From an uncultured bacterium (GTDB lineage: Bacteria > Chloroflexota > Anaerolineae > J036 > Brachytrichaceae): DNA of 45,668 nucleotides. Positions 6,422-36,392 of the stretch are shown piece after piece. Positions within the stretch are counted from its first letter, which is position 1. Each line of letters starts with the position of its first letter. Under the pieces are notes generated by a model that worked only from the letters and a program-made list of their open reading frames with translations, searched no databases and had not been told where the DNA came from. Position numbers and translations under genes: made by a program. The stretch is from assembly GCA_903921365.1 (NCBI GenBank), contig CAIXPS010000397.1, positions 1 to 45,668 of the forward strand, written 5' to 3'.

Positions 6422-6922
6422 ATGCCATTCTGGCGCGCTTACTATCACCTCGTCTGGACAACACACAATCGCGAGCCATACATTACTCCACAGATAGAGC
6501 CTCGCTTGTACAGTTACATTGTTCGCAAGGCATACGAACTTGGCGTTGTTGTGTATGCCATCAATTGATGGACAGAGCACGTGCATCTGCTTGTGGCGAT
6601 ACCCCCAAAGCACTCCGTCTCAGATGTTGTCAAGACGCTTAAAGGCGCGAGTTCGCATGATATGGGTGTGCAAGGGTACGCTTTTGAGTGGCAACGGGGT
6701 TACGGCGCATTAACCTGCGGCGAAAAACAACTTTCCGGCGCGCAAGCTTACATTGCGGCTCAGAAAACACACCACTCAGACAATACGACGAACAAAATGC
6801 TAGAGTACTGCACTGAGATTGACGAGGGTCCGACGATCTCAGGAATGCAGATTGACTGTGTGCAAGCCATAGTCAAGGACGATAAGGTAGATTACGACGT
6901 AATTGGGACTTCACCGTTTTGA
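6422..6922 (+). pseudogene. REP-associated tyrosine transposase (Y1/HUH, RAYT) with in-frame TGA
   Basis: A frame of 166 codons reads as a TnpA_REP protein: MPFWRAYYHLVWTTHNREPY at the start, the HUH metal motif EHVHLLV, IPPKHSVSDVVKTLKGASS, and the catalytic-Tyr helix in AYIAAQKTHH. RAYTs cut and join single-stranded DNA at REP hairpins. The frame is whole except for TGA at 6566-6568 (codon 49), exactly where relatives usually carry Gly before the HUH motif, so a GGA to TGA change is likely. AGGAG at 6410-6414 precedes the ATG well. An internal GTG at 6581 could give a shorter product that lacks the first strands and probably activity. Two palindromic repeats lie just downstream, as expected for a RAYT with its REPs. 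Confidence 0.85.
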
Positions 6923-24092: not shown

Positions 24093-24164
24093 CAGCCATA
24101 CCATGGCTCACAGCCATTCCATGGCTCACAGCCATTCCATGGCTCACAGCCATTCCATGGCTCA
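24093..24164. repeat. Four tandem 18-bp palindromic repeats at the mtlD stop codon
   Basis: Units at 24093-24110, 24111-24128, 24129-24146 and 24147-24164 read CAGCCATTCCATGGCTCA; the first differs by one base. Each contains the inverted repeat AGCCAT/ATGGCT with a 3-base loop, so the array can fold into four small hairpins or pair between units. The last unit includes the TGA stop (24162-24164) of the mtlD-like gene. The unit length is a multiple of three and, on the minus strand, each unit carries an ATG and a TGA. Confidence 0.95.
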
Positions 24165-25322
24165 CGCGCCGCGATAGCGTTGCGCGATCTGCGCGGCCAG
24201 CGGTTCGTCCCCATCGAGTTCGCACACCTCGCGCAGCGTGCGCGCCAGCCCGTAGCCGTGCAGTTTGGCCTGCAACTCCGCCGCGAGCGGGTCATCTGGA
24301 TGGCGGAACTTGAGCGCCGCAACGATGCCGGTCACCAGGTGTGCCGGAGTGACACCCTCGGCCAGCGCATTCAGCGCCGCGCCCACCAGCCGGTCCGTGC
24401 GTCCAAGCTTGCGGATCGGATCGCGCCCCAGCCGCAGGATCGTGTCGCCAAGAACGGTGTTCTCGAAGCGGTGCAGCAGATCGTCAATGTTGGCGCGCAA
24501 TGCGCCTTGTGGCGGATGATACTTGCGCGCCAGCGTCAACGCCGACTCTTCCATCGCCCCGCGCACCTGGAAGTAAATCTCATCGTCGGCCAGCGCGTCG
24601 TAGCCATACTCGAAACCGCGCAGATAGCCGAGATACGCGAGCACCGCATGGCCGGCGTTGTGGATGTACAGCTTGCGCTCGGTGAAGAACGAGAACGGCG
24701 CATATGGCGTCATGCCGACGATGGCGGGCGGCTGGCCGATGAACCCGTTGCGATCCACCGGCAATTGCTTGTAGGGTTCGACGACGATCATGCTGGCATC
24801 CTGTGCGCGTTGTTCTGGCGTAGGCGGCGGAACCATGCGCGCAATCACCGTGTCGACAAAGCCAACATGCGCCTGCATGAAGGCGTGGTGCTCGGCGGGC
24901 AGCAGTTCCTTGACCATGCCGCGCGCGATCGCCGCTGCGCCTTTCAGGTTCTCGCAGATGATCAGGTGCAGGGGAGCAGTGTTGCCTTCAGCCGCGCGCC
25001 GCGCGATACCCCTGGCGATGTTGGGCGCGACGAACTTCAGCACGTTCGCGCCGACGGCGGTCGCGCCAATATCGGCGCGGCTGACCAGTGCTGCCACCTC
25101 TTCCACGTTGCTGGCATGCAAGGCGCGCACTGGCCCGACATGGACTTCCTCGGTCGCCTCGTTGGTCACCAGCCGGATGTTATAGGCGCCGCGCTGATTG
25201 ATTGCATCGAGCAGCGGTTGATCGACATCGACGAATGTGACCTGATAGCCGCTCTCGCAATACAGTTGCCCGATGAACCCGCGCCCGATGTTGCCTGCGC
25301 CAAAAATAACTGCTTCTTTCAT
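24162..25322 (-). CDS. mtlD: Mannitol-1-phosphate 5-dehydrogenase-like protein
   Basis: The 386-residue protein fits the polyol long-chain dehydrogenases of the MtlD type, which interconvert mannitol-1-phosphate and fructose-6-phosphate with NAD. The N-terminus MKEAVIFGAGNIGRGFIGQL is the Rossmann fold, VDVDQPLLDAIN follows, and HLIICENLKGAA and VGFVDTVIARMVPP match the family's central segments. The catalytic region has YIHNAGHAVLAYLGYLRGFE, corresponding to the usual HN.GH..AAYLG. ATG 25322 is chosen because the Rossmann motif then starts at residue 7; an upstream in-frame start at 25382 adds no family-like sequence. No mannitol PTS genes are nearby, so the substrate source is unclear. Confidence 0.85.
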   Translation of the reverse strand: MKEAVIFGAGNIGRGFIGQLYCESGYQVTFVDVDQPLLDAINQRGAYNIRLVTNEATEEVHVGPVRALHASNVEEVAALVSRADIGATAVGANVLKFVAPNIARGIARRAAEGNTAPLHLIICENLKGAAAIARGMVKELLPAEHHAFMQAHVGFVDTVIARMVPPPTPEQRAQDASMIVVEPYKQLPVDRNGFIGQPPAIVGMTPYAPFSFFTERKLYIHNAGHAVLAYLGYLRGFEYGYDALADDEIYFQVRGAMEESALTLARKYHPPQGALRANIDDLLHRFENTVLGDTILRLGRDPIRKLGRTDRLVGAALNALAEGVTPAHLVTGIVAALKFRHPDDPLAAELQAKLHGYGLARTLREVCELDGDEPLAAQIAQRYRGA

Positions 25323-27093: not shown

Positions 27094-27300
27094 TGCAATA
27101 TCCTGTATATCCCTGTGTGGATTGGTATAAGGATACTGCGTTTCACGAAATGCTGTGCGCCTTTCCCCTGCAAAGGCCATGGGCTTGCGCAAAACGGCAC
27201 ATATCTAAGACCATTCGCGTGTCAGCGGCGAATTATGAAGATTAAGCAAATTAACCGTACAGACTGCATGCGCCACATCAGACGGCCACACGGCGCATAG

Positions 27301-27433
27301 CGGCCGCTACGTGGATTAATGACGTAGCGGCCGACCCGCGTGTCGGCCAGGTGCGGCCTGACCTCCAGCAAAGGGCAACGCCGCTACGTGGGTTAATGAC
27401 GTAGCGGCCGACCCGCGTGTCGGCCAGGTGCGG
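27301..27433. repeat. Two dispersed copies of a 53-bp twin-hairpin repeat
   Basis: Copies at 27304-27356 and 27381-27433 differ at one base. Each has hairpin 1, CGGCCGCTACGT with ACGTAGCGGCCG in the first copy (27301-27312 and 27322-27333, loop GGATTAATG), and hairpin 2, GGCCGAC-CCGCGT-GTCGGCC (27329-27348). The two stems share five bases, so they cannot form fully at once. Loops and order match the tandem units at 35228-35624. They lie upstream of the GH36-like gene and downstream of the gene relic at 27482. Confidence 0.88.
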
Positions 27434-27481
27434 TGTACGGAGTTATTTTTTAATAGTCATCATTCGCTGTGTCATCCCCAC

Positions 27482-33762: not shown

Positions 33763-35139
33763 CTACATAATCACTACACAGTTGCGCCCGGCGTCTTTGG
33801 CCGAATAGAGCGCCTTGTCGGCCTGTTTAACAAGGTCGTTCTCGTCCTTTGCATCGAGATCGGGGTAAGCAGTGCCCCCCACGCTCATGGTGACGTGAAT
33901 CTCCTGCTCGCCATCCAGGAGCGGCGTTTCTTCAACCATACGCCGCGCGCGTTCGCCCACTTGCGCGGCATCCTCGCGCGAGGCCGCGGGCAGAATGGCG
34001 AAGAATTCGTCGCCCCCATAGCGCACCAGGATGTCCCCTTCACGCACCACAGAGCGAATCACCCTGACCACCTGTGCCAGGAAGCGGTCGCCTACATGGT
34101 GACCATAGGTATCGTTGATGTTCTTGAACCTGTCGAGGTCGAACATGAGCAAAGCCAGAGGCGAGTTGATGCGGGTCGCCCGGCTAAGTTCCTCGCGCAA
34201 CCGCATCGTCCCGAAATGCCGGTTGAAGACGCCGGTCAGCCCGTCCAACGCAGCCAGGCGCTGCATGCGATCGTGCATCATCGCGTTGTGCAACGCCAGC
34301 GCAAGACCCTGGCGAAATAGATCAAGGCGCTTCAAATCATCGTCTGTGAAGCCGCCTGCGCTGGCCAGAATAATGACTCCCAACGCCGTACTCTTGTAGA
34401 AGATCGGATCGATGAGCACTTCACGCGGTCGAAAATCGGTCAGGACGCCCTCGACCAGCACGTCTGTCGGCAAAAGCACGCGCACGAGCTGCTCCGTGCG
34501 CAGTGCGCGCCGGACGTGGTCGCTGGCGCAGAGCGCCTGTGGGGTGCGAATCCCGTTGACCATGGAGACCGTCATCTCGCCTTCGCTTTCGATCAGAATT
34601 GCGCCAGCGCCGGCGTTGGTGTGCTGCATCAGTTGCTGCAATGCCTTCTCCGTCAGAACGTTCAGATCCAACTGGCTGGACATGGTTTGAGTAAACGCGC
34701 GCACCGCGCCTTCGGTCTGGATCATGCGGAAAAGCGACTGCACCAGCCGGTTGAACGCCCTGGCGCTGTCGCCTATCTCATCATCTGAGTCGCTGTTGAC
34801 GTAGCAGTCTTCGGGTTTGCACCGCTCCATGTTGCCGTCTTTGGTCATTGCCTCCAGGTTGGATTCCACATGGCGCATGCGGTCAGCCAGAAGGGTTAAC
34901 CGACGCCCCACCACCGACTTCGCCAGAGCGATGTTGGCGGCGCCCACGATCATGCCGGCCGCAATGCAGGCGGCGAAAAACACAGGGGTTAGAACAGACG
35001 CCGGAGGAAGCCCCATGAGTGTCACAAAGAAGGGGAAAATGACGCCCATCAGCACACCCAACCCAATCATCCAGATGGCGAGATCAGTGAATACCTTACG
35101 TGTCAAACGGATTATGGCGTTACTCCTGGTGTTTTGCAA
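33763..35139 (-). CDS. Membrane HAMP-GAF-GGDEF diguanylate cyclase
   Basis: The 458-residue protein has two N-terminal membrane helices (about 20-43 and 52-74), a HAMP-like linker (75-140), a GAF-like sensor (about 150-285) and a GGDEF domain (about 292-458). The active site RYGGDEFF (373-380) is intact, so it should make cyclic di-GMP from two GTP. RxxD at Arg366-Asp369, five residues before GGDEF, is a complete inhibitory I-site, so product feedback is expected. Metal and substrate residues LLMFDLDRFKNINDTYGHHV are present. The start is at ATG 35139, 89 bases from the tandem twin-hairpin array. The signal sensed by GAF is unknown. Confidence 0.93.
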   Translation of the reverse strand: MQNTRSNAIIRLTRKVFTDLAIWMIGLGVLMGVIFPFFVTLMGLPPASVLTPVFFAACIAAGMIVGAANIALAKSVVGRRLTLLADRMRHVESNLEAMTKDGNMERCKPEDCYVNSDSDDEIGDSARAFNRLVQSLFRMIQTEGAVRAFTQTMSSQLDLNVLTEKALQQLMQHTNAGAGAILIESEGEMTVSMVNGIRTPQALCASDHVRRALRTEQLVRVLLPTDVLVEGVLTDFRPREVLIDPIFYKSTALGVIILASAGGFTDDDLKRLDLFRQGLALALHNAMMHDRMQRLAALDGLTGVFNRHFGTMRLREELSRATRINSPLALLMFDLDRFKNINDTYGHHVGDRFLAQVVRVIRSVVREGDILVRYGGDEFFAILPAASREDAAQVGERARRMVEETPLLDGEQEIHVTMSVGGTAYPDLDAKDENDLVKQADKALYSAKDAGRNCVVIM

Positions 35140-35227
35140 TAACTAAAATTGACTCGCAATGTAAGCTATTGCTCACTATGATCGACGAATTGCAATGATT
35201 GTATTACCATGTCGGAAATACATGTCA

Positions 35228-35624
35228 CTACGTGGATGTATCACGTAGACGCGGACCCATGTGTCCGCCCGGCCGCTTACGTGGATGTATCACGTAGGCG
35301 CGGAGCGGGACCCATGTGTCCGCCCGGCCGCAACGTGGATGTATCACGTAGACGCGGACCCATGTGTCCGCCCGGCCGCATGCGCGGATGTATGACGTAG
35401 ACGCGAAGCGGGACCCATGTGTCCGCCCGGCCGCAACGTGGATGTATCACGTAGACGCGGACCCGTGTGTCCGCCCGGCCGCAACGTGGATGTATCACGT
35501 AGACGCGGGACCCATGTGTCCGCCCGGCCGCTTACGTGGATGTATCACGTAGACGCGGACCCATGTGTCCGCCCGGCCGCTTACGTGGATGTATCACGTA
35601 GACGCGGACCCATGTGTCCGCCGC
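35228..35624. repeat. Tandem array of eight twin-hairpin units (48-55 bp each)
   Basis: Units: 35228-35276, 35277-35331, 35332-35379, 35380-35434, 35435-35482, 35483-35531, 35532-35580, and a cut-off last unit 35581-35624. Each carries hairpin 1 (TACGTG-GATGTAT-CACGTA), then GCGGAC-CCATGT-GTCCGC as hairpin 2, then CCGGCCGC. Units 2 and 4 have a six-base insert after GCG that keeps the second stem. Unit 4 has a damaged first stem. Unit 5 has loop CCGTGT. There are no spacers, so it is not CRISPR. The array sits between the zinc-ribbon gene stop (35637) and the diguanylate cyclase start. Confidence 0.95.
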
Positions 35625-35636
35625 GACATATTGGTG

Positions 35637-36392
35637 TCACACATCCTGGTACTTTGAGTCATCGAGATCCTTTTTGAGCTTGTCGGCGTCTGACATAACC
35701 GGAATTTGGGCATGCCCGCCAGCAAGTTCGGCCTGCTCGGCGGCGCGCAGTTTGTCGAGCGCGGCAGGGCGGATCACGCCCCACTTGCCGCACGCGGGAC
35801 AGCGCTGCAGCTTGGCGCCCAGCAGGTTCATGCCAAAGAGTTGAAAGGCTACCGGACTCCCGCACCTGGGGCAGATGCCGCCGCCCATGGGATACTGCCG
35901 ATGGGCACCTAGTGGGAGCGCGCGCCCCTTTCGACCTGCCAGCAGCGGCACAATAGCCGCCAGCACAATCGCTCCGAAGACGATGACAAGAATCGGGACG
36001 ACGAAACCCAGCATGTTTCTCGTCGCATCGGCAGCAGCAATGAACCGCGCGGTCAGCGGCCGCGACGCCAGTGCTGCGCCACTTGTGGTCGTGCCTTTAG
36101 CATAGAGCGTGTGCATGCCGGTCGGGTAGTCGTCCGTGATGAACTGGATGGCGAACGGCGCCCGCGTAGCCTCGCCGATCTTCTTCGTGTCGATGTAAAA
36201 CTCGATCTTCGTAATGTCCGCCGGCCCAGTAGCTTTGAGCGTGAACGCGCCCTGGATGTCGTCGTTGAAACCGCCGTAGCCCCAGTCGCGCGTGAGTTCG
36301 AGATTTAACATCGCACTCTGCGCCAATAGTTTTGGTGCGATTAACAATCCGCCCAACAGGGTGATTAGGGCGGCGATAGAACGCGTTTTCAT
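35637..36392 (-). CDS. Exported-domain membrane protein with C-terminal zinc ribbon
   Basis: The 251-residue protein has a signal peptide (about 1-25, ending LLAQS), an Ig-like beta domain (about 28-120; ATGPADITKIEFYIDTKKIG, YPTGMHTLYAKGTT) and a membrane helix (about 127-150, MLGFVVPILVIVFGAIVLAA). A cytoplasmic zinc ribbon (CPRCGSP and RCPACGKWG) and a Lys/Asp-rich tail follow. It begins 4 bases after the ABC-2 permease stop and closes a three-gene unit with that transporter, so it may be an accessory or sensor subunit. The Ig-like part resembles the domain that follows glycosidase or adhesin cores (a Big_9-like fold), which is tentative. Confidence 0.8.
   Translation of the reverse strand: MKTRSIAALITLLGGLLIAPKLLAQSAMLNLELTRDWGYGGFNDDIQGAFTLKATGPADITKIEFYIDTKKIGEATRAPFAIQFITDDYPTGMHTLYAKGTTTSGAALASRPLTARFIAAADATRNMLGFVVPILVIVFGAIVLAAIVPLLAGRKGRALPLGAHRQYPMGGGICPRCGSPVAFQLFGMNLLGAKLQRCPACGKWGVIRPAALDKLRAAEQAELAGGHAQIPVMSDADKLKKDLDDSKYQDV

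Follow-up and report, generated by a model that had tools for sequence, protein, structure and literature searches.

The repeat array and its genomic context

Positions 35228 to 35624 (plus strand) of the window, i.e., the entire 45,668-nucleotide stretch of DNA analysed here, are occupied by an array of eight contiguous, head-to-tail units that was delineated with a repeat finder, among other analyses (Tandem Repeats Finder: 35228-35622, with a period of 49, 7.9 copies and a score of 581). The array is flanked by two genes that are both on the minus strand and are considered here as context only. One encodes a Big_7/zinc-ribbon protein (35637..36392), with 12 bases between the end of the array and the stop of the gene at 35637; the other encodes a GGDEF protein (diguanylate cyclase; 33763..35139), with the array lying upstream and 88 bases separating its start from the gene start at 35139. 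The array is real and non-coding, as originally proposed, and the previously assigned coordinates, the absence of spacers and the distances to both genes all hold.

The units measure 49, 55, 48, 55, 48, 49, 49 and 44 bases, in agreement with the predicted lengths of 48, 49 or 55 bases for units 1-7 but not for unit 8. Each unit had been described as two hairpins followed by a linker; unit 8, however, lacks the linker (CCGGCCGC), and in unit 4 the first (upstream) hairpin, a palindrome, is disrupted (ATGCGCGGATGTATGACGTAG). The second hairpin together with the preceding GTAG, which is the REP proper as argued below, was located by pattern search in unit 1 (GTAG-AC-GCGGAC-CCATGT-GTCCGC; 35245..35268), unit 3 (35348..35371), unit 5 (with the loop CCGTGT; 35451..35474), unit 7 (35549..35572) and unit 8 (35598..35621), and only in these units is its stem perfect. 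The claim that this stem survives in every unit has to be relaxed for the other three REPs, which are likewise on the plus strand and keep it with a bulge: those of unit 2 (35294..35323) and unit 4 (35397..35426) contain a six-base insert (GCGAAGCGGGAC in unit 4), and that of unit 6 (35499..35523) has one extra G. The folding of unit 4 is no better than that of its own shuffles.

The variant with the six-base insert (GCGAAGCGGGACCC) is not a local feature because it is also present on three other contigs (C576, C471 and C268). In unit 4 as well as on these contigs, this variant contains GCGAAGC, an unusually stable DNA mini-hairpin. A search of the window with the pattern GTAG-NN-GCNGACCC-NN-GTGTCNGC, allowing at most three mismatches, yielded 8 matches compared to 0.13 expected in shuffled sequences; among these, two, at 27324 and 27401, are located outside the array and one matches unit 8 weakly, on the minus strand. 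The window also contains a near-perfect tandem repeat with an 18-base unit (CAGCCATTCCATGGCTCA) that includes the palindrome CCATGG and is present in 4.1 copies (24093-24165).

A single conserved hairpin preceded by GTAG

Selection on the structure was assessed with copies that were picked solely by the GTAG and the loop CCRYGT, with pairing disregarded. All six stem pairs are present in 60 of the 97 sites selected in this way, against 1 of 246 in shuffled sequence. Conversely, when perfect hairpins with the CCRYGT loop were collected without requiring GTAG, this tetranucleotide was found to precede 54 of the 65. An alignment of 38 distinct copies was built from the GTAG-plus-loop sites at fixed spacing, and in this alignment the second stem, the one that follows GTAG, is 99.6% paired, with two-sided changes in 4 of the 6 pairs (32 cells) and one-sided changes, resulting in wobble pairs, in only 2 of the 228 cells. 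The covariation score of the whole structure is not reached by any of 500 shuffles. The structure of the second hairpin is, then, under selection.

The first hairpin behaves differently. In the same 38 copies, pairing in the upstream palindrome amounts to 80%, and two-sided changes are absent; the invariant GTAG is part of the right arm whereas the left arm is variable and, in some subtypes, unrelated. The conserved unit therefore consists of GTAG followed, after about two bases, by one hairpin with a 6-bp stem and the loop CCRYGT (consensus GTAG-NN-GCNGAC-CCRYGT-GTCNGC) and is not a twin hairpin. In inverted pairs of such units, the CTAC of the left arm is nothing but the GTAG that the adjacent unit carries on the opposite strand, so that the pairing of the palindrome probably comes for free. 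Accordingly, the original prediction of a twin hairpin maintained by structural selection is upheld only for one of the two hairpins, and what had appeared to be the other is the GTAG-bearing arm of the unit with a loosely kept partner strand. The conserved twin hairpin was rejected as a description of the family, given that the upstream palindrome is also missing altogether in several subtypes.

A dispersed repeat family in the host genome

The array is not unique but belongs to a family that is dispersed in the host genome. A BLAST search with the array finds 28 places in this genome, and a covariance model derived from 29 units, a search that had been proposed along with the array, gives 126 matches (E 0.001 or better). 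The copies occur as single elements, as inverted pairs with a palindromic linker between the two REPs (CTACGTGGATNNATGACGTAG; many copies, e.g., on contigs C389, C602 and C272) and as head-to-tail runs (e.g., on C4 and C460). They are mostly intergenic: only 9 of 60 REPs fall within open reading frames of at least 150 aa, which cover 78% of random positions in the stretches examined, and six of these nine belong to one array at a contig end.

The second locus in the window, previously suggested to be linked to the array on account of a repeat pair at 27304-27433, indeed represents the same family according to both the pattern search and the covariance model. It is a composite (27255..27440, plus strand) of two REPs, with GTAG at 27324 and 27401, and has the ends CCGTACA...TGTACGG. 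Its left (GATTAAGCAAA) and right (GTTATTTTTTAATAG) arms recur on other contigs, and the right arm also occurs alone on contig C114. The composite is possibly a larger miniature element built around REPs.

Several explanations other than a mobile repeat were considered. It is very unlikely that the array is an assembly artefact in which short reads of a dispersed repeat were collapsed or the repeat was falsely expanded. Admittedly, the draft genome consists of 603 contigs, and many family copies are found at contig ends, as can be expected for repeats in a draft assembly, so that the number of units in the array may be inaccurate. Nevertheless, the array is internal to a contig of 45.7 kb and is made of units that differ from each other, and similar arrays are present on other contigs and in other genomes. 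The regularity of the short repeats might also bring to mind a CRISPR array or another spacer-bearing system, a reading that has practically no chance of being correct given that the units are contiguous, without spacers, and are scattered over many contigs.

Another option is that the array is maintained as an RNA element which would be transcribed in the direction from the zinc-ribbon gene to the GGDEF gene, with the hairpins shielding the upstream message from 3' exonucleases or damping the read-through into the latter gene. The position of the array, 12 bases past a stop and between genes of the same orientation, would suit such a role, and REPs are often found downstream of genes, where some are thought to be active in RNA (PMC3733652). 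We nevertheless consider this option unlikely. A search of the 35000-35800 region for hairpins followed by a T-run identified none, so that the terminator stack of the original prediction is not supported, and the search of the window against Rfam 15 gave no matches above the gathering score. Moreover, the near-exclusive two-sidedness of the stem changes appears to fit pairing in DNA better than pairing in RNA. Finally, the family is dispersed genome-wide in the same form, and therefore the structure needs no local role.

The flanking genes in related genomes

Among the seven relatives searched, only one (G001) possesses the zinc-ribbon gene, and there is no array beside it. An empty site or an insertion junction of the array could not be read in this genome because the sequence past the zinc-ribbon gene does not align. 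By eye, a different, long GTAG hairpin (GTAGGGGCGAAAGCATTGCC...GGCAATGCTTCGCCCC) can be seen in G001 next to the zinc-ribbon orthologue, on the side where the window has its array (L149, 140-210).

The location of the array upstream of the GGDEF gene, at a distance of 88 bases, is compatible with a set of tandem sites for a host protein, such as gyrase, an IHF-like protein or a repressor, that would set the expression of this gene, and in E. coli, gyrase is among the host proteins that REPs are known to bind (PMC3733652, PMC6006769). The retention of the zinc-ribbon gene without an adjacent array in G001 argues against an essential local role, and copies of the unit are found on many contigs in unrelated surroundings; a regulatory multi-site thus appears improbable. 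The array probably has a minor effect on the genes next to it, and its presence can be explained without any benefit to them.

Affiliation with the GTAG-REP superfamily

T. roseum is a member of Chloroflexota. It is one of the organisms for which GTAG repeats are listed in the description of the GTAG-REP superfamily (Di Nocera et al. 2013, PMC3733652), which comprises 20-40-base hairpins that carry an unpaired GTAG on one side and are present in high copy number, mostly in intergenic regions. These repeats display complementary stem variation, form dimers and tandem clusters, and are associated with RAYT genes (PMC3733652). The window family resembles them in all these respects: it combines a GTAG foot with a short, GC-rich stem-loop that undergoes complementary changes, is high-copy and intergenic, includes dimers and tandem clusters, and shows an association with RAYT (see below). 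The two unpaired bases between GTAG and the stem in the window subtype are also found in the GTAG-1 and GTAG-2 families (PMC3733652). The assignment was made by the definition of the superfamily, for which 24 consensus sequences have been published (PMC3733652). The upstream CTACGT...ACGTAG palindrome is a local feature of the window units that distinguishes them from other GTAG-REPs. Contrary to the original suggestion that the unit lies outside any named repeat class, it belongs to one, that of the GTAG-tagged REPs (PMC3733652).

Two other known systems show partial similarity to the array. Many of the host copies elsewhere consist of two inverted, linked REPs, like the REPINs and BIMEs (PMC3116915, PMC2817692), whereas the window array differs from that arrangement in being composed of direct repeats of one REP. 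The subterminal hairpins of IS200/IS605 elements, recognized by TnpA-IS200, share with the REPs the combination of a single-strand hairpin with an adjacent tetranucleotide guide and the involvement of an HUH Y1 enzyme family; unlike these elements, the REP copies contain neither a transposase gene nor the left and right IS ends.

RAYT genes in the host and in related genomes

The assembly encodes a RAYT homologue (contig C110; 168 aa) that yields a match to PF01797 above the cut-off and a match to the profile for REP-associated tyrosine transposases (NF047646; E 1.5e-18) with a score of 67 bits, which is under the curated NCBIfam cut-off of 80. It contains the motifs PNHIHG, WQ (in WQRD) and YIENNP, and a profile built from this protein and its relatives matches the solved structure of TnpA-REP (4er8). 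The gene is surrounded by hairpins with the loops CCGTGT, CCACGT or CCGCGT, the same loop consensus as in the window; these hairpins are present on both sides of the gene, but an intact GTAG is found only on one side. Other features of these REPs are distinct: the stem is 8 bp long, starts directly after GTAG, without the two unpaired bases of the window subtype, and has other sequences. A RAYT would mobilise the exact REP subtype of the window as well, and the C110 enzyme is the best candidate for this role in the assembly, despite the differences in stem and spacer. Inspection by eye revealed no such hairpin beside either of the other host RAYTs (on C474 and C29).

The C110 protein resembles subclass 2.4 of TnpA-REP, which is characterized by the motifs NH[IFV]H, WQ and YIxNNP and by in-frame REPs inside the RAYT gene (Quentin et al. 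2018, PMC6006769). The likeness consists in the NHIH, WQ and YIxNNP motifs and the REP-flanked gene, i.e., a match by motifs and gene context, and in the in-frame REPs that are present in many homologues, although the C110 coding sequence itself has no internal REP pair. These in-frame REPs are inverted pairs of GTAG-hairpins that lie between the HUH and tyrosine motifs of RAYT open frames from many phyla (e.g., at 1747/1804 in locus L046, 1744/1831 in L049, 3241/3359 in L150 and 3238/3358 in L158, with many more in the L150-L229 set), including metagenome-assembled genomes labelled Omnitrophota, Nitrospinota and Daviesbacteria. This arrangement was not taken as novel because it has been published for subclass 2.4 (PMC6006769).

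The window also harbors the frame of an IS200-type Y1 transposase (6431-6763) that is interrupted by one in-frame TGA; a relative on contig C505 is an open frame of 166 aa. Neither gene has a GTAG-hairpin of the window type right beside it, and both were set aside as a source of the repeats. Moreover, the IS200/IS605 model (NF033573) matches the C505 protein far better than the RAYT model does.

The linkage between RAYT genes and GTAG-hairpins is well pronounced in related genomes. Homologues of RAYT were identified in 153 of the 298 genomes of the class. Perfect 8-bp GTAG-hairpins are present at 24 of 29 RAYT loci (72 hairpins) compared to 3 of 30 control loci (3 hairpins) that encode an ABC-transporter protein in the same genome set. 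Across another 80 RAYT loci, which come from many phyla, GTAG-hairpins drop in density from 2.28 per kb inside the gene to 0.96 within 500 bases and to 0.093 farther away. A by-eye comparison of RAYT presence with REP presence in the relatives was left out of the evidence. In a genome from the family of the host, a RAYT gene (L050) is flanked by two arrays in opposite orientation, one of 6 units with a 59-base period and the other of 10 units with a 49-base period; therefore, head-to-tail REP arrays of such a period accompany RAYTs in this lineage.

Taken together, these observations leave us highly confident that the array consists of tandemly clustered GTAG-tagged REPs, i.e., non-autonomous, single-stranded DNA hairpin elements of the kind processed by the RAYT (TnpA-REP) family of HUH transposases. 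Among the roles that had been put forward for the array (a terminator stack, an RNA buffer or a substrate of a hairpin-cutting transposase), the last one is the best supported.

A scenario for the spread and expansion of the repeats

The array was probably made by RAYT-driven spread followed by tandem amplification. By analogy with the mode established for the GTAG-REP family (PMC3733652), the REPs of the window would have spread as mobile elements, with one of them tandemly multiplied afterwards. When the DNA becomes single-stranded, for example at a replication fork, each REP could fold into its hairpin; a RAYT would then recognize the hairpin together with the GTAG foot, cut at GTAG and transfer REPs, singly or as inverted pairs, to intergenic sites elsewhere. 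The invariance of the loop and GTAG, against a stem that varies by paired changes, is what recognition of a foot plus a hairpin predicts. At the array site, one REP would have been multiplied head-to-tail, either through repeated insertion or because units slipped or recombined with each other, to give eight slightly different copies. As for the route of this expansion, the heterogeneity of the units, along with the presence of the insert variant on three other contigs, suggests a contribution of recombination, or of repeated insertion, between subtypes.

A more elaborate possibility, to which we give little credence, is that the foot can be locked. In the window units, GTAG is part of the 3' arm of the CTACGT...ACGTAG palindrome and might be hidden in a hairpin of its own, so that only one of the two alternative folds would be cuttable; tandem arrays could then act as RAYT decoys that limit the spread of the repeats.

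Under the scenario of RAYT-driven spread and tandem amplification, the array is a known kind of bacterial mobile repeat that has expanded locally. These findings show that an uncultivated lineage of Chloroflexota has a rich population of GTAG-REPs, complete with tandem arrays and a RAYT flanked by REPs.
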